A stretch of DNA of 64,000 nt from Proteus faecis (GTDB taxonomy: Bacteria; Pseudomonadota; Gammaproteobacteria; Enterobacterales; Enterobacteriaceae), in the NCBI RefSeq assembly GCF_003144395.1, contig NZ_PENZ01000034.1, forward strand, positions 372,001 through 436,000. Reading direction: 5' to 3'. Below the pieces are notes generated by a model. It saw only the letters and a list, made by a program, of their open reading frames with translations, had not been told where the DNA came from and made no database searches. Within the stretch, counting starts at the first letter, position 1. Every line of letters begins with the position of its first letter. The position numbers and the translations under genes were made by a program. Below are positions 26,930 through 34,823 of this stretch, one piece after another.

Positions 26930-28684
26930 ATGGCTATTACCGAAACATTTGATAACCGAAAAAAAGCAATGCACCTGTATTTTTCAGGTTACCGCATTGC
27001 TCGCATAGCGGAATCGCTAGGCGAAAAGGCGTCCACCATTCACAGTTGGAAACGCCGTGATAATTGGGATGAAATCAACCCAACCGAACGCGCAGAGTTA
27101 ACCGTTGAAGCGCGTTATTGCAATCTGATTTTAAAAGAGAGCAAAGAAGGCAAAGATTTTAAAGAAATCGATTTATTAGGGCGTCAACTTGAACGCATGG
27201 CGCGGATCAGAAAATATCAAAACGGTGGTAATGAAACTGACCTTAACCCTAAGATTGCCAACCGCAATAAAGGCGAACGCCGTCAACCAGAGAAAAACTT
27301 CTTTTCAGAAGAACAAATCGAAAAATTAGAAGATGAGTTTCGCAATACGTTATTTGAATATCAAAAGGTGTGGTATCGCGCCGGTCATCACCGTATCCGC
27401 AATATTTTAAAATCTCGTCAAATCGGCGCAACGTTTTACTTTGCCCGTGAAGCCTTTATTGATGCCCTGACCACCGGACGGAATCAAGTTTTCTTATCCG
27501 CCAGTAAAGCGCAAGCCTATATGTTCCGTGAATACATTATCAAAATGGCATTAGAGGTTGATGTTGAGTTAAGAGGCGACCCGCTGATGTTGAGCAATGG
27601 TGCAACGCTCTATTTCCTCGGCACTAATGCACGCACAGCACAAAGTTATCACGGCAATTTATATCTGGATGAAACCTTTTGGATACCCAAGTTTCAGGAG
27701 TTACGCAAAGTGACTTCAGGTATGGCCATACAAAAACATTGGCGACAAACCTACTTTTCAACACCGTCAACCATGAGCCATGAAGCGTACCCGTTTTGGT
27801 CGGGCAAGCTATATAACCGCGGACGCAAAAAAGAAGATAGAGTTGATATTGATATTTCACATGAAGCCTTAGTCAATGGGCGCTTATGTGAGGATGGGCA
27901 GTGGCGACAAATCGTCAACATTGAAGATGCGTTGCGAGGCGGTTGTGATTTATTCGATTTAGAGCAACTCAAAAAAGAGTATAGCCCAGACGAATATAAC
28001 AACCTGTTAATGTGCCACTTTATGGATGATATCGAATCCCTATTTAACTTTAACATGATGCAAAATTGCATGGTGGACAGTTGGGAGGTGTGGGATGACA
28101 TTCAACCATTAGCCCTGCGCCCTTATGCCTATAATCCTGTTTGGGTAGGTTATGACCCCAGCAAAGGCGGTGAAAATGGTGATAGTGCCGGTTGTGTGGT
28201 TATCGCTCCGCCGAAAGTACCCGGAGGGAAATTCCGCATATTAGAGCGCCATCAATGGCGTGGTATGGATTTTCGCGCACAAGCTGACGCCATAAAAAAA
28301 ATCACCGAACGTTTCTATGTTGAATATATGGGTATTGATACCACCGGCTTAGGCCATGGGGTTTATCAGAATGTTATCCAGTTTTTCCCTGCTGCGCGTG
28401 AGTTTATTTATAACCCGAATGTCAAAAATGCTTTAGTCATTAAAGCTTATGACGTGATTAGTCACGGACGTTTAGAGTTCGACGCACAGTGCGTTGATAT
28501 CATTCAATCTTTTACTTCCATTCGCCGTACTACCACCGGAAGCGGTAACCGCCCTACTTATGAAGCCTCACGCAGTGAAGAAAGCGGACATGCTGACCTT
28601 GCATGGGCAACGATGCACGCCCTCTTCAACGAACCATTAACCGGCACCACCGAGAACAGTAATAATATTGTGGAGATTTATTGA
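26930..28684 (+). CDS. P: Terminase large subunit (P2 gpP-like)
   Basis: 584 residues. An N-terminal helix-turn-helix (about 12-50, IARIAESLGEKASTIHSWKR) precedes an ATPase with Walker A-like KSRQIGATF (161-169) and Walker B LYLDETF (244-250, Asp 247, Glu 248). The C-terminal nuclease fold has GYDPSKGGENGDSAG and MGIDTTGLGHG. It drives packaging into procapsids. It is followed by Q with a TGATG overlap. A truncated lookalike of residues about 140-380 occurs at 31558-32238. Confidence 0.96.
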   Translation: MAITETFDNRKKAMHLYFSGYRIARIAESLGEKASTIHSWKRRDNWDEINPTERAELTVEARYCNLILKESKEGKDFKEIDLLGRQLERMARIRKYQNGGNETDLNPKIANRNKGERRQPEKNFFSEEQIEKLEDEFRNTLFEYQKVWYRAGHHRIRNILKSRQIGATFYFAREAFIDALTTGRNQVFLSASKAQAYMFREYIIKMALEVDVELRGDPLMLSNGATLYFLGTNARTAQSYHGNLYLDETFWIPKFQELRKVTSGMAIQKHWRQTYFSTPSTMSHEAYPFWSGKLYNRGRKKEDRVDIDISHEALVNGRLCEDGQWRQIVNIEDALRGGCDLFDLEQLKKEYSPDEYNNLLMCHFMDDIESLFNFNMMQNCMVDSWEVWDDIQPLALRPYAYNPVWVGYDPSKGGENGDSAGCVVIAPPKVPGGKFRILERHQWRGMDFRAQADAIKKITERFYVEYMGIDTTGLGHGVYQNVIQFFPAAREFIYNPNVKNALVIKAYDVISHGRLEFDAQCVDIIQSFTSIRRTTTGSGNRPTYEASRSEESGHADLAWATMHALFNEPLTGTTENSNNIVEIY

Positions 28685-29712
28685 TGAGCCGTAAAAATAA
28701 AAAAAGTTTTAAAGCACAACAAACGGCAACCGCCAATAATAGTATGGAAGCCTTTACCTTTGGTGATCCCGTTCCGGTGTTAGATAAACGAGAAATCTTT
28801 GATTATCTGGAATGTGCGCAAGTTGATAATTGGTATGAGCCACCGGTTAGCTTTGATGGGTTATCAAAACTGTTTCGTGCGGCGACGCATCATAGCAGTG
28901 CAATTTATGTGAAACGTAATATCTTAGTCAGCACATTTCAGCCTAACCGTTTTCTCTCTAAGTTAGACTTTAGCCGGTTTGCTCTCGACTTCTTAACCTT
29001 TGGCAATGCCTACCTTGAACGGCGTAACAATATGGTGGGTAACTTATTAAAACTCACCCCCGTTCTCGCCAAATATACCCGCCGTGGTGTTGCTGATGAT
29101 AGCTATTGGTTTGTGCGTTATGGCTATGACTCACAGCCTTATGAGTTTAAACTCGGTAGCGTGTTTCAGTTATACGAACCCGATTTAAATCAAGAGCTAT
29201 ATGGATTACCGGAATATCTGGCATCCACTATGTCAGTGCTACTGAATGAAGCCGCTACCCTATTCCGTGTTAAGTATTATCGCAATGGTAGCCATGCCGG
29301 ATTTATTTTATACGTCAGTGATGCATCACAAAACCAAAGTGATATTGATAAAATTCGTAAAGCAATGCAAAACTCAAAAGGTCCCGGCAATTTCCGCAAC
29401 TTGTTTATCCACGCACCGAACGGCAAGAAAGACGGCGTACAAGTTATTCCACTAAGTGAGATTGCGGCGAAAGATGAATTCCTTAATATCAAGAATGTTA
29501 GCCGTGATGATATGTTAGCGGCACACCGTGTACCGCCTCAAATGATGGGGATCATTCCACAGAATACCGGTGGCTTTGGTGACGTAGAGAAAGCGGCAAA
29601 GGTTTTCTTTCGTAATGAGTTGGCACCACTGCAAAGCAAGATATTACAGATCAATGATTGGTTAGGTGAGGAAGTGATTAAGTTTGATAAGTACACATTA
29701 GATGATGAGTAA
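28684..29712 (+). CDS. Q: Portal protein (P2 gpQ-like)
   Basis: 342 residues from ATG 28684, which overlaps the P stop; an in-frame TTG precedes it. MEAFTFGDPVPVLDKREIFD, FLTFGNAYLERRNN, LYGLPEYLASTMSVLLNEAA and AAHRVPPQMMGIIPQNTGGF are conserved portal segments. It forms the ring through which DNA is packaged. Last gene before cos. Confidence 0.96.
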   Translation: MSRKNKKSFKAQQTATANNSMEAFTFGDPVPVLDKREIFDYLECAQVDNWYEPPVSFDGLSKLFRAATHHSSAIYVKRNILVSTFQPNRFLSKLDFSRFALDFLTFGNAYLERRNNMVGNLLKLTPVLAKYTRRGVADDSYWFVRYGYDSQPYEFKLGSVFQLYEPDLNQELYGLPEYLASTMSVLLNEAATLFRVKYYRNGSHAGFILYVSDASQNQSDIDKIRKAMQNSKGPGNFRNLFIHAPNGKKDGVQVIPLSEIAAKDEFLNIKNVSRDDMLAAHRVPPQMMGIIPQNTGGFGDVEKAAKVFFRNELAPLQSKILQINDWLGEEVIKFDKYTLDDE

Positions 29713-30145: not shown

Positions 30146-31495
30146 ATGAGGTTATCACCAGAAGAACCTGATTTTTCTCAAGGATTTACAAGCGAAAATG
30201 ATATTTTTAATAGGAAAGTTTTATATGAAAAAATTATTAATGTCGTAAACCATTCTGAAGATAGTAACTTAGTTCTTGCATTAAATGATAAATGGGGAAA
30301 TGGTAAAACCTCTTTTGTAAAAATGCTAAAAGCAGAATTAGAACTATCAGAAAATAATATTAATGTTATTTACTTTGACTCTTTTAAAAATGATTACCAA
30401 AAAGACCCATTATTACCAATGATATCATGTGTATACAATAGTATAGAACATGATGAAAAATCTATAAAAGAGAAAGTGTTCCAAACAGGTAAAAGTGTTG
30501 CTTTAAGCATTTCAAAACAAGTTCCTAAAAGTATAATCAATATATTAACCTCTAAACTAATCGACAGTGATGATATAGATAAAATTAAGGAATCAATTGT
30601 TGATGCCACAAATGCCCCTTGGGAAAGTTACATTGAAGATAAAATAAAAAACTCACAAGAAGAAGAGGATAAAATCGAAAGTTTTAGAGCCATATTAAGG
30701 TCTATACACCAAAAAACAAATAATAAAACCTTATTTATTATTGATGAGTTAGATAGAGCAAGACCTGATTTCTCATTAAATCTTTTAGAATTAATAAAAC
30801 ACATATTTAATGTTGAAGGTTTTTATTTTTTACTAGTTATGAATAAGCAACAATTTGAAGAATCAATAAAAATAAGATATGGAAATATTAACTCATCATT
30901 ATATTTAAATAAATTTATAGATTATTGGTTTACCTTGCCTAAAGATATATTTACAACAGAAGAATACATAAATGGCGAAGGGTATCGTATGCCTAAAAAT
31001 TTAACTTTAGGTGCTTATCTTCAACATATAGATAAAAATAATATTCTTATGAAAGAAAGCGATGCATTTAATATGCTACTGTACCTATTTAACTTCAACA
31101 ATGTATCTCTTAGAGAAATAGAGAAATGTTATTCTTTAATTTCAATTATTAAAAACTCCAATAAAATAATGATGCTTGATAAGCCATATCAAGTTATTGT
31201 TGCTTTGGTTTGTTTTTTGAAAATTAACAATGAACCATTATTAGATAAATTAAAAAGAAGGGATGCAACTCCAGAAGAAGTACTTACACTATTGAATATA
31301 CCATTGGATAAGGATTTATTTGATACATCAATTCACTATTTATATATAGTACTGCGTTATGAATTACTTACTGGTGAAGAATTTAAAAAACTTAAAGGTG
31401 AAAATTATTTTATAGGTATAGAAGGTTATGCTGGCAGAAAAGTAAGATACTTAGAAACGATAACCGATTACTTTGAAAACATGTCCATAGATTAA
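30146..31495 (+). CDS. KAP-type P-loop NTPase (cargo gene)
   Basis: 449 residues, very AT-rich. Walker A NDKWGNGKTS (47-56) and Walker B FIIDELDRARPDF (197-209) fit the KAP family of STAND-like NTPases. No clear transmembrane segments are seen in the region where many KAP proteins carry them. The C-terminal 200 residues are helical with no recognised domain. AAGGAG precedes the ATG. It lies between cos and A, where P2 has tin and old, both phage-exclusion genes, and it converges on the terminase-like gene. KAP NTPases occur in anti-phage systems; the role here is inferred. Confidence 0.8.
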   Translation: MRLSPEEPDFSQGFTSENDIFNRKVLYEKIINVVNHSEDSNLVLALNDKWGNGKTSFVKMLKAELELSENNINVIYFDSFKNDYQKDPLLPMISCVYNSIEHDEKSIKEKVFQTGKSVALSISKQVPKSIINILTSKLIDSDDIDKIKESIVDATNAPWESYIEDKIKNSQEEEDKIESFRAILRSIHQKTNNKTLFIIDELDRARPDFSLNLLELIKHIFNVEGFYFLLVMNKQQFEESIKIRYGNINSSLYLNKFIDYWFTLPKDIFTTEEYINGEGYRMPKNLTLGAYLQHIDKNNILMKESDAFNMLLYLFNFNNVSLREIEKCYSLISIIKNSNKIMMLDKPYQVIVALVCFLKINNEPLLDKLKRRDATPEEVLTLLNIPLDKDLFDTSIHYLYIVLRYELLTGEEFKKLKGENYFIGIEGYAGRKVRYLETITDYFENMSID

Positions 31496-31503
31496 TTCCA
31501 TGA

Positions 31504-31543
31504 TGGCTTAAATTATTCCTAAGAATATTTTAAGCCACTTTTT
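31504..31543. terminator. Bidirectional terminator between the KAP and terminase-like genes
   Basis: TGGCTTAAA / TTTTAAGCCA stem extended by an inner AT helix, followed by TTTTT on the plus strand. Confidence 0.7.
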
Positions 31544-31557
31544 GTTAATTTCATAAA

Positions 31558-32238
31558 TCAATTTTTATTAAATTGACACAATATCATTTCATTAAAATAA
31601 TCATCACCCCTATCATTTCTTATATTTTCCATATTTAAAAAGTTATAACACCCCATATTAATAGATGGAACGACATCCCAATACGTTTCCTCATCAAAAA
31701 TTTTATGATGTTTAAAATAATCATTATCAGCAATGTGACCATTATCTAACTTTGAACGACTTGAATAAAAAGTCCTTCTCCATTTTTTATTTAAACTCAC
31801 TGATTTAACTAGACTTACAATGTAAGAAGGGTCTTGAAACCAACTCCATTCTGAAACATAAATGTCACCAATGATATCAACCCATGACTTACGATTCTCA
31901 GGTAAAAAATACAATATTGCGCCATTATCTAACTCTATTTTTGTTATAGGATTATTACTTTTTATACCTAAGAAATATTTAACAATCTCCATTTCATTAG
32001 AGATAAATTCATCATCTGGCCCACAAATATGGCTTATATATATTTTATTTCTTCCTGTTAAACAGGCATCTAATAACCCCTCTAGAGCAAAGAAATAACT
32101 GCTACCTATTTGACGCGCTTTATGTAAATATCTATTTCTTTCAAACCTGTGGTTATACCAACGTGTTTGCCATGGATATAATTTATCTAACTTGCTATAT
32201 AAACTTACCAATAAATCAGTTGTTACCTTGACTTTCAT
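31558..32238 (-). CDS. Truncated terminase-ATPase-like protein
   Basis: 226 residues from ATG 32238, preceded by GAGGAGAG. It is collinear with gpP residues about 140-380: LYPWQTRWYNHRF (gpP FEYQKVWYRAGH), KARQIGSSYFFALEGLLDA (gpP KSRQIGATFYFAREAFIDA), TGRNKIYIS, NGAILYFLPENR, KKWRRTFYSS. The Walker B aspartate is lost (IYVSEWSW against LYLDETFW). The N-terminal DNA-binding part and C-terminal nuclease are absent. It starts one base after the small membrane protein, itself overlapping gpA, so it should be made early. It might act as a decoy or packaging interferer; this is inference. Confidence 0.75.
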   Translation of the reverse strand: MKVKVTTDLLVSLYSKLDKLYPWQTRWYNHRFERNRYLHKARQIGSSYFFALEGLLDACLTGRNKIYISHICGPDDEFISNEMEIVKYFLGIKSNNPITKIELDNGAILYFLPENRKSWVDIIGDIYVSEWSWFQDPSYIVSLVKSVSLNKKWRRTFYSSRSKLDNGHIADNDYFKHHKIFDEETYWDVVPSINMGCYNFLNMENIRNDRGDDYFNEMILCQFNKN

Positions 32239-32239
32239 T

Positions 32240-32452
32240 TTATCTCTCCTCACTCATACCAATAAATTTTCTATATTTCTCTGCAATAAAAAAATATGAT
32301 TCAATAAAAATATAAAGAGGCCATAACGTTGAATAATCTATCGCTTCGCCAAAACTATATTTATTGCGATAACTCTTTTTTGATTTAATAGTCCTGTATA
32401 TAAAAAGAGTTACCGACACCAATAAATAAAACAAAATTAAATATTTAATCAT
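32240..32452 (-). CDS. Small membrane protein coupled to gpA
   Basis: 70 residues. An N-terminal hydrophobic helix (MIKYLILFYLLVSVTLFIYR) is followed by a basic loop and a second aromatic segment (STLWPLYIFIESYFFIA). Its ATG overlaps the end of gpA by eight bases, and the terminase-like gene begins one base after its stop. No family recognised. Coupling suggests that it works with the terminase-like protein or as a phage-exclusion protein. Confidence 0.65.
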   Translation of the reverse strand: MIKYLILFYLLVSVTLFIYRTIKSKKSYRNKYSFGEAIDYSTLWPLYIFIESYFFIAEKYRKFIGMSEER

Positions 32453-34823
32453 TTATTCCTCTCAATTTATTAACCTTAGCCATTACCCTATCTCGTGTAT
32501 TTGATATATTCTTTTGCTTCACTTTTTCAAAATTAACTTTTTCTCGTTTCGTTGATGAAATTTGAATCTTCCCGTTCTCAAACCAAATCACTTCATCGCC
32601 ATAACTCAGGCGCATACCGTTCATCACCATTGACCACATTGTGTCTGGCGGTAAATCCAATCCCATTTTTTCGGCAAAAGCTTTAAACTCAGGTATCAAA
32701 CGTTCCTGATTTTCACTTAATGACACGGTTGAAATTATTCGCTGATTCTTTTTATGCTCTAAAACCTCACCAAATGATTTATCCCAATCGCTATATTGTG
32801 AACGTAGGTCAAAAACATCAGGCTCAGAAATCCCCCATACGGGCGATTTTAAGCCCCTATCGTGTAGGTTTTTAATATCGGGTGAACTGCCCGATCCACA
32901 GTTATTGACAGGACTCCGAGGCGCGCTAATCGCGCTTTTTAAAGTCAAAACCCGACCCGTTTCTAACTTACGCTTATGCTCAATTGCCTCAATATCCTGC
33001 TTAGATTTGCGGACTAAACGATACTGACGTTCACGCGTTTTTACTAAATCACCGCTTTTCAATGGTGAACATAGCCCAATAACGCGCATCACTTCTTCAT
33101 CATAAGAATTCGGCTCATCTGCAACAATACGAGCGACTAATAACGTTTGTAGGTTACGCTTAACGTTAGGCCCTCCTTGATGCTCAATATAAGCGGCGAA
33201 ATCCCCGGCATCGGCAGACGCTCTTACTTTTTCCGCTATATCACCCAACTTATCAGCGATACTCACACCACGAACACGGCGACACTCACGCCATACGCCT
33301 TTAGACGGTAAGCCAAACATGTGAAATTGAGGAATACGCCAAGTTGATGCCCACGCGGTAACAGCAGATGCAACCTCGGTTAATAACTCTCCCGATTCGT
33401 CATCAACTTCGCCCTCTAACGCATAACCATCAATATTTTTAGAAATGTATTTAGCGAGATAACCCGTCGCACCGCCTTTATTTAAATGCTTTGCTTCAAA
33501 ACGGTGTTTCTTTGCGCCTCGTTCTTCGCCATCTTCTTCAAGGGCGTACTTACGCATGATCTCAATCGCTGATGCACGTTGAGATTTATCCAGAAACATC
33601 ATCATGTGCCAATGTGGCGTAGCGTCATGATGAGGTTCAACAACCCTGATCCCATAATAGTTAATGCCTTTGTCTTTAAAGGCTGTGCGAATTTTTGCCC
33701 AAACTCTTACTAAATAACGCTGACCATCTTTCGGAGTGTATGCACTGTTATTCCATTTCTCGTTAATGAGAACTTTTTTCTTTTTCTCATCTTTAGAAAC
33801 GTTAATTTGCTTGGTGGGATGGTATTTTGAAGGGGTGGTTAACGTAATAAATAAACCAATATCGCCCCGTTCTTCTGCAACTTTTTGAATACCTGCGGCT
33901 TGCGCCATTAATTCCATACGGCGAATTTTAGGGTTAGCGATACTTGCTAATACTTTTTCCATTAAGTCAAAGCGATCACCCGATTCAACATCTTGAATAT
34001 CCATCATTTCAAGATAATTCATATTCGCTAAGCGTTGCGCTCTGACTTCACGAACCGCATTTTTACTGGCGTAAGGCGTCTTATCTGAATTCACATCACC
34101 AAAGGCAATATGCAAAGACTCACGCCAACGCTGACGATGAGCCTTTAACTTTTTCAGCCACCAATCTTCATTAGTTAACCGACTTAATCCTGATAGCGCA
34201 TCTTCAGGTGTTAACTTCCATTTTTGCACTTTTCCCCAAAACAATGGCGTTACATGTAAATAGGTAATTAACTGCCCTAATTGATGATAAATAGGGTTAA
34301 TCACTTTTAGGTTAAGTAACACCTCACGATCACCGTTATTTTCAGCAATTGCCTGATCAGCTAATTCATCGAATAAGTTGTCACACGCATTCGCGAATGA
34401 CTTCGCCATATGACGCAATATTTTGTCATGCGCATCGGGCAAGCGATTAAAGAACATGGCTTGATCAAAATCTCTATCTAACAAGAATTGACGCTTATCT
34501 TTCGCTAAACCATAGCGCGCATTAACAGCTTGCAAACGCTGATAAACGCTTTTATGAAACTTAAACACCAGCCAGTTATGAACTTCTTTAGGTGTTTTCT
34601 CTTTTCTAAGATGTTCGATGTATTTAAATAAGCGGGATTTAAGAAAACGAGGCAGTTTTTCAATATCGAATAAAATCGCTTGCCCCTGAGCCAATTGCTC
34701 ACGGGTAAGCGGTCTTTCATAAACAACAGGCTCGTGCTGTTTCCCATTCCACCAATACGTCCATTGCATATCAGCAGGATAGGAAACAGGAGGCTGAGAA
34801 AAATCAATCAAACGGCTAGCCAT
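32445..34823 (-). CDS. A: Replication initiation endonuclease (P2 gpA-like)
   Basis: 792 residues; HUH-type rolling-circle nickase. Metal-binding motif PHWHMMMF (His 404, His 406) and the double-tyrosine motif GYLAKYISKNIDGY (Tyr 455, Tyr 459) are intact. The P2 origin lies within gene A, so this gene probably contains it too. Start overlaps the preceding gene (TAATG). Last of the coupled early genes before the two cargo genes. Confidence 0.95.
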   Translation of the reverse strand: MASRLIDFSQPPVSYPADMQWTYWWNGKQHEPVVYERPLTREQLAQGQAILFDIEKLPRFLKSRLFKYIEHLRKEKTPKEVHNWLVFKFHKSVYQRLQAVNARYGLAKDKRQFLLDRDFDQAMFFNRLPDAHDKILRHMAKSFANACDNLFDELADQAIAENNGDREVLLNLKVINPIYHQLGQLITYLHVTPLFWGKVQKWKLTPEDALSGLSRLTNEDWWLKKLKAHRQRWRESLHIAFGDVNSDKTPYASKNAVREVRAQRLANMNYLEMMDIQDVESGDRFDLMEKVLASIANPKIRRMELMAQAAGIQKVAEERGDIGLFITLTTPSKYHPTKQINVSKDEKKKKVLINEKWNNSAYTPKDGQRYLVRVWAKIRTAFKDKGINYYGIRVVEPHHDATPHWHMMMFLDKSQRASAIEIMRKYALEEDGEERGAKKHRFEAKHLNKGGATGYLAKYISKNIDGYALEGEVDDESGELLTEVASAVTAWASTWRIPQFHMFGLPSKGVWRECRRVRGVSIADKLGDIAEKVRASADAGDFAAYIEHQGGPNVKRNLQTLLVARIVADEPNSYDEEVMRVIGLCSPLKSGDLVKTRERQYRLVRKSKQDIEAIEHKRKLETGRVLTLKSAISAPRSPVNNCGSGSSPDIKNLHDRGLKSPVWGISEPDVFDLRSQYSDWDKSFGEVLEHKKNQRIISTVSLSENQERLIPEFKAFAEKMGLDLPPDTMWSMVMNGMRLSYGDEVIWFENGKIQISSTKREKVNFEKVKQKNISNTRDRVMAKVNKLRGIND

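Follow-up and report, generated by a model that had tools for sequence, protein, structure and literature searches.

Few phage proteins are as well conserved as the large terminase (TerL), and it directly triggers immune receptors of bacteria. The available text on the Avs family describes Avs1-4 as receptors that sense the large terminase, the portal or Ksap1 (PMC12931631). P2 has a hotspot beside cos, flanked by gpA and the portal, and the available text of Rousset et al. locates old, tin and many defence systems there (Rousset et al., 2022, PMC9122126). The open-access literature, covered through titles and the starts of abstracts from full-text searches, describes no family of pseudo-terminases. 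The family of terminase look-alikes in P2-like phages reported here is apparently undescribed.

The window, which is the whole 64,000-nucleotide stretch of DNA that was analysed, carries a P2-like prophage. Its gpP and portal genes are followed on the same strand by a KAP NTPase gene, which converges with a chain of three genes on the opposite strand: gpA, a 70-residue protein and a 226-residue protein, the pseudo-terminase. The features are as follows.

26930..28684, plus strand: gpP, the prophage's own full-length large terminase, with HTH, ATPase and nuclease (Pfam Terminase_5, Terminase_6N and Terminase_6C).
28681..29712, plus strand: portal gpQ, about 66-67% identical to E. coli-type portal frames and a portal by E. 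coli annotation.
30146..31495, plus strand: KAP-family P-loop NTPase (KAP_NTPase 3.1e-37; PADLOC PDC-S20 1.8e-76), defence-candidate cargo of the hotspot.
31558..32238, minus strand: the 226-residue pseudo-terminase, a TerL ATPase core alone, with Walker A KARQIGSS and Walker B SE, not DE.
32240..32452, minus strand: the 70-residue protein, with a hydrophobic N-terminus (by eye); it is a conserved anchor at 20 IMG/VR loci.
32445..34823, minus strand: the gpA-like replication gene (so named in the original prediction), upstream partner in the chain; its homologues keep the order in related loci.

The gpA gene overlaps the 70-residue frame, and a single base lies between the stop codon of that frame and the ATG of the 226-residue frame (at 32238), confirming the coordinates and the coupled chain of the original prediction. 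The prediction had also matched this position to the tin/old region of P2, and the gene does lie in the gpA-portal hotspot next to cos as that region is described in the available text (Rousset et al., 2022, PMC9122126). At the gpP/gpQ junction of the window there is no inserted pseudo-terminase. The KAP NTPase has weaker PADLOC matches to PifA and QatA besides the candidate PDC-S20; a copy with 98% identity is present in locus L015 and none was found in L016. At about 31505-31545, in the gap where the KAP and pseudo-terminase genes converge, an inverted repeat followed by a T run is a possible two-way terminator, noted by eye and not in the scan output.

Residues 18-223 of the 226-residue protein are collinear with residues 139-364 of the prophage's own gpP (24% identity, E 4e-23, BLASTP). 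The protein matches PHROG 3746, terminase large subunit (2.7e-36), and Pfam Terminase_6N (4.3e-7, 30.3 bits against a cut-off of 22). Terminase_6N is the middle one of the three Pfam domains of gpP and the only one that the protein matches; the HTH N-terminus and the nuclease C-terminus are absent. Judged by these matches, the resemblance to gpP is beyond chance. The prediction of a collinear look-alike of gpP from about residue 140 to 380 stands in its collinearity and was slightly off at the end, as the aligned span stops at 364; the lack of a DNA-binding N-terminus and a nuclease is as it had been described. Terminase_6N is also matched by eight of nine other pseudo or truncated copies, the exception being L039. 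The GC content of the gene is 0.291, compared with 0.440 for gpP and 0.412 for gpA. It had been read as AT-rich, diverged and not recently duplicated, and this was correct: the 24% identity and a separate clade (see below) rule out a recent duplicate of the prophage's own gpP. PADLOC has no model matching the 226-residue or the 70-residue protein, NCBIfam has none matching any of the four pseudo-terminases tried, and a PDB sequence search with the pseudo-terminase alignment returned no match. The AlphaFold prediction of the 226-residue protein is of low confidence (mean pLDDT 53.6), as is that of a 144-residue relative (59.6), and neither model serves as evidence here.

In a set of 20 genomes that represents each species of the genus once, the window's own genome and G002 (96%) have the full gene; the gene order in G002 is gpA, pseudo-terminase, portal and gpP. 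G012 has a C-terminal fragment and G011 a short form. IMG/VR holds copies at 100%, 96% and 91%, the first of which may be the window's own genome. A search with the 226-residue and 70-residue proteins found no relatives in a set of genome contigs that may omit records close to the window's genome. L012, L013 and G002 share an intact frame with the window, and the median dN/dS among four distinct window-type copies is 0.21. The original prediction had raised the possibility that the gene is a decaying fragment in related prophages. Some relatives are indeed without the gene or have broken pieces of it, but intact orthologues at 96% and 91% and a dN/dS of about 0.2 indicate that the 226-residue gene is no decaying fragment; to judge from its substitutions it is held by purifying selection, and to judge from its presence and absence it is dispensable.

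The gene that follows the conserved 70-residue anchor is variable. At 20 loci it is a long pseudo-terminase in three and the 144-residue gene in five, and the other twelve have other genes or nothing, so the pseudo-terminase is an optional cargo of the gpA-portal hotspot next to cos. One alternative cargo, at L018-L020 (6200-6556), is a 118-residue hydrophobic protein (phrog_18437), behind which L018 and L019 have a 32-residue remnant of the pseudo-terminase. We rejected the 70-residue protein as an obligate partner because of the 12 of 20 loci with other or no cargo and because other genes precede the 164-168-residue forms of L037 and L039. We also rejected the KAP NTPase and the pseudo-terminase as a paired system, since L016 has a pseudo-terminase without KAP and L020 has part of KAP without a pseudo-terminase.

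The gpA-portal site is held by the window copy, by a diverged short form of 144-168 residues and by copies from another host lineage. The 144-residue protein occurs in L021-L025, G011 and L010. It is homologous to the 226-residue protein (E 2e-10) and has a weak match to phrog_3746 (4e-7) and none in Pfam; in alignments its Walker A and Walker B acids are gone, and the frame is still open. Forms of 168 and 164 residues occur in L037 and L039 without the 70-residue gene, and the median dN/dS over eight copies of 144-168 residues is 0.28. In the other lineage, a remnant that reads VYVSEWAW lies close to the remains of a portal gene in genome G178, of a different genus in the same family. When this remnant and its relative were used as queries, ten IMG/VR contigs proved to carry copies (L132, L133 and L136 repeat L127, L128 and L129). 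Eight of these copies are intact (L132-L139, 229-245 residues as called), lie on the gpA strand and face the portal; the L130 copy is shortened and the L131 copy is a fragment. VYVSEW is present in 8/8 of the intact copies, which have a median dN/dS of 0.19.

A second site was reached via the short form. Escherichia phage 500465-1 has a truncated terminase gene between gpP and the portal, and a scan with this copy gave 35 loci. Of these, 33 (L044-L076) have a pseudo-terminase frame, which is complete in 32 and cut by the contig end in L068, and it overlaps both gpP and portal wherever both neighbours are visible. L077 and L078 are without the frame, L077 retaining just its last third, in frame. 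L125 is a relative without the insert; there gpP overlaps the portal by one base, the base where the pseudo-terminase otherwise starts. Further gpP-portal copies are found in Yersinia phage vB_YenM_201.16 and in Salmonella phage BIS20 (partial, record end). At the family level 122 of 392 genomes have a match at 1e-12. Among the matches listed there, intact short gpP-portal copies are found in G112 (two), G173, G194, G267 and G188, and broken ones in G334 and G390; the G112, G173, G194 and G188 copies overlap gpP and portal, and the G267 copy abuts the portal. A class-level search of 369 genomes gave eight matches at E 1e-25, including the window's own genome, which alone has a short copy. The original prediction had suggested a search for homologues always lying between A and cos; gpA-portal copies were found there, and the pseudo-terminases sit between gpP and the portal as well. 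E. coli annotation names the gpP-portal copy 'terminase large subunit domain-containing protein'. Over 24 gpP-portal loci the median dN/dS is 0.18 for the pseudo-terminase, 0.06 for gpP and 0.07 for the portal; by this measure the pseudo-terminases evolve about three times faster than gpP.

Two of these copies (L075 4001-4708 and L076 4001-4705) are mosaics. 

The pseudo-terminases of both sites split from the gpPs in a 56-row tree with SH-aLRT/UFBoot support of 99.8/100. The support is 100/100 with the short forms added (59 rows) and again 100/100 with the other host lineage added (67 rows); in the latter tree the gpA-portal copies and the short forms group at 99.9/99. Subject to possible long-branch attraction, as the branches are long, the pseudo-terminases appear to be a monophyletic TerL-derived clade that takes in none of the full-length gpPs sampled. 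The clade is present at two sites in P2-like phages: gpA-portal, next to cos, and gpP-portal, in E. coli, Yersinia, Salmonella and others.

The Walker motifs were counted in 73 distinct gpP cores (110 frames), 35 distinct gpP-portal copies (40 loci) and five distinct gpA-portal copies (one a fragment). Four copies stand outside these counts: L042, which has SE but diverges at its C-terminal end, the cut L068, and the broken L118 and L119, in which Asp-Glu is kept. In the gpP cores, Walker A KSRQIG followed by Thr and Walker B Asp-Glu are invariant (73/73). In the gpP-portal copies, the Walker A Thr position is Asp in 33/35 and Thr in 2/35, and the Walker B Asp position is Ser in 29, Leu in two, Pro in one, Gly in one and Asp in two; the Walker A Lys and the Walker B Glu are kept in 35/35. 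All five gpA-portal copies have Ser for the Walker B Asp and keep the Glu. The window copy has Ser at both the Walker A Thr and the Walker B Asp positions, and the predicted Asp to Ser change is there to be read (IYVSEWSW against LYLDETFW in gpP). The Walker B Asp is lost and the Glu kept in 38 of the 40 distinct copies (one a fragment, one partial), the window copy included. The two exceptions, BIS20 and L113, both at the gpP-portal site, keep both Asp and Thr; these and the broken L118 and L119, which keep the Walker B Asp, indicate that loss of catalysis is not universal in the clade. The retained parts of the nucleotide pocket are the adenine-motif Gln, the Walker A Lys, Arg, Gln and Gly and the Walker B Glu. 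Loss of the Walker B Asp removes a Mg contact, and hydrolysis should therefore be impaired. At the gpP-portal site (L044-L076, L112-L117, Yersinia and BIS20), the acid seems to have moved from Walker B to Walker A, as the Thr to Asp replacement in 33/35 copies has it.

Over 24 loci, gpP and portal distances are strongly correlated (Mantel r=0.905, p=0.001), whereas the correlations are weak between gpP and pseudo-terminase (r=0.118, p=0.175) and between pseudo-terminase and portal (r=0.317, p=0.135). Leaving out L075 and L076 raises the last two to 0.42 and 0.41, so the independence from gpP is incomplete. L128 and L129 have pseudo-terminases that are 82% identical next to gpPs at 48% and portals at 50%; their gpAs are 93% identical, suggesting that the gpA-portal copy travels with the gpA side. 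The same pair, with gpA at 93% and gpP at 48%, shows a head and packaging module swapped across cos. The L132-L139 pseudo-terminases adjoin three different gpP types. The pseudo-terminase is exchanged largely without regard to the carrier phage's terminase, which speaks against a role in the phage's own motor and against one in helper hijack.

The reading we prefer, with a confidence just short of an even chance, is that the pseudo-terminase may be a dedicated TerL mimic aimed outside the phage's own motor, most likely as a decoy for TerL-sensing immunity and next as a poison for a foreign motor. It would act as a pseudo-enzyme, a stand-alone TerL ATPase domain with much of the nucleotide pocket kept and the Walker B Asp gone. 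From its operon placement, it would be produced during the phage's own lytic growth. A promoter scan found no promoter of its own above shuffles for the pseudo-terminase, and fewer sites than in shuffled sequence; this result and both placements suggest lytic-growth expression and not constitutive expression in the lysogen. A factor that recognises the TerL ATPase domain, other than the own motor, would then bind the mimic instead. The likeliest target would be a TerL-sensing host receptor of the Avs kind, occupied without being triggered, perhaps because the nuclease domain is missing. The next likeliest would be a competitor phage's packaging motor, which the mimic could join and stall. Host receptors that sense the terminase or portal exist (Avs1-4, as described in the available text of PMC12931631), which makes the immune decoy our first choice and the foreign-motor poison our second.

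The original prediction had proposed a competitor poison or superinfection exclusion: when a second P2-like phage infects the cell, a dead ATPase subunit would enter its TerL ring or portal and bring packaging to a halt. This is unlikely in our view, although the gpA-portal hotspot is the site of P2 old and tin (available text of PMC9122126), the neighbouring KAP NTPase is a defence candidate and the near-independence from the own gpP would fit. Being coupled behind gpA, or overlapping gpP and portal, the pseudo-terminase would be made in the phage's own lytic cycle, where a poison of P2-type motors would also threaten the own motor, and the want of an own promoter above shuffles also argues against it.

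An accessory or regulatory subunit of the own packaging motor, either in a heteromeric terminase ring or as a cleavage brake, is rather improbable. The purifying selection is consistent with it, as is the order gpP, pseudo-terminase, portal with its overlapping start and stop codons, an arrangement that adjacency alone would fit. However, a near relative of the pseudo-terminase is found in just 17 of 5426 E. coli genomes (by a near-identity search, which would miss diverged copies), against 1208 of 5426 with a close gpP 3' end, and among the 25 E. coli matches listed there are 23 in which a full-length gpP match directly adjoins the portal. Its distances track neither gpP nor portal over all 24 loci, the 82% identical copies of L128 and L129 serve beside 48% identical gpPs, and the window copy is in a different operon from gpP.

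An anti-satellite device, which would block the use of the helper terminase by P4-like satellites, has a low probability. P4 uses the P2 terminase and shares the cos core (available text of PMC9122126), and the gpP-portal class is placed in the packaging operon, but such a device must act on complexes of the own gpP, and the decoupling from gpP makes this less likely. A decaying duplicate without function is very improbable: broken copies (L118, L119), fragments (L122, C-terminal, and L131), the L018/L019 remnants, the lost frame of L077/L078 and the shortened L130 would suit it, but most examined copies are intact, the four sets have dN/dS values of 0.18-0.28 and particular residues have stayed the same through deep divergence.

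Returning to the mimic, a wider proposal is possible, if doubtful: in P2-like phages of Enterobacterales, a horizontally moving pseudo-terminase family, made together with gpP and portal or in the early replication operon, might shield the packaging genes from TerL- and portal-sensing immunity. With a clade of catalytically altered terminase mimics in several host lineages, the idea that phages use decoys to protect their packaging motor can readily be tested. Records mostly annotate members of the clade as plain terminase or hypothetical protein, and counts of terminase genes can miscount phages.

The closest relative of the pseudo-terminase is the P2-type gpP, with which it shares ATPase-domain homology over about 205 residues, the Walker A Lys, Arg, Gln and Gly and the Walker B Glu. 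It differs in having neither HTH nor nuclease, in its replaced Walker B Asp, in being shorter after the TPS motif and in forming its own clade. Aeromonas phage phiO18P gp21 (DQ674738, 'truncated terminase ATPase subunit') is likewise a truncated copy of the TerL ATPase between gpP and portal. It was rejected as a clade member, since the tree places it with the gpP of its own phage (support 99); it retains the Walker B Asp and the segment after TPS, and thus seems an independent, younger duplication, suggesting that the truncated-terminase architecture arose at least twice. In gp21 (L043 3845-4618) the Walker A Arg is His, with Walker B kept. With P2 old and tin, the pseudo-terminase shares the place next to cos between gpA and portal, as variable cargo beside a conserved anchor (available text of PMC9122126); it is TerL-derived, is likened to them by position and not by sequence, and its role in exclusion is putative. 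Avs (AVAST) proteins recognise the large terminase or the portal, the products of the two genes that flank the gpP-portal class (available text of PMC12931631). Unlike the pseudo-terminase, they are host receptors and not phage proteins, and here they are a possible target only.
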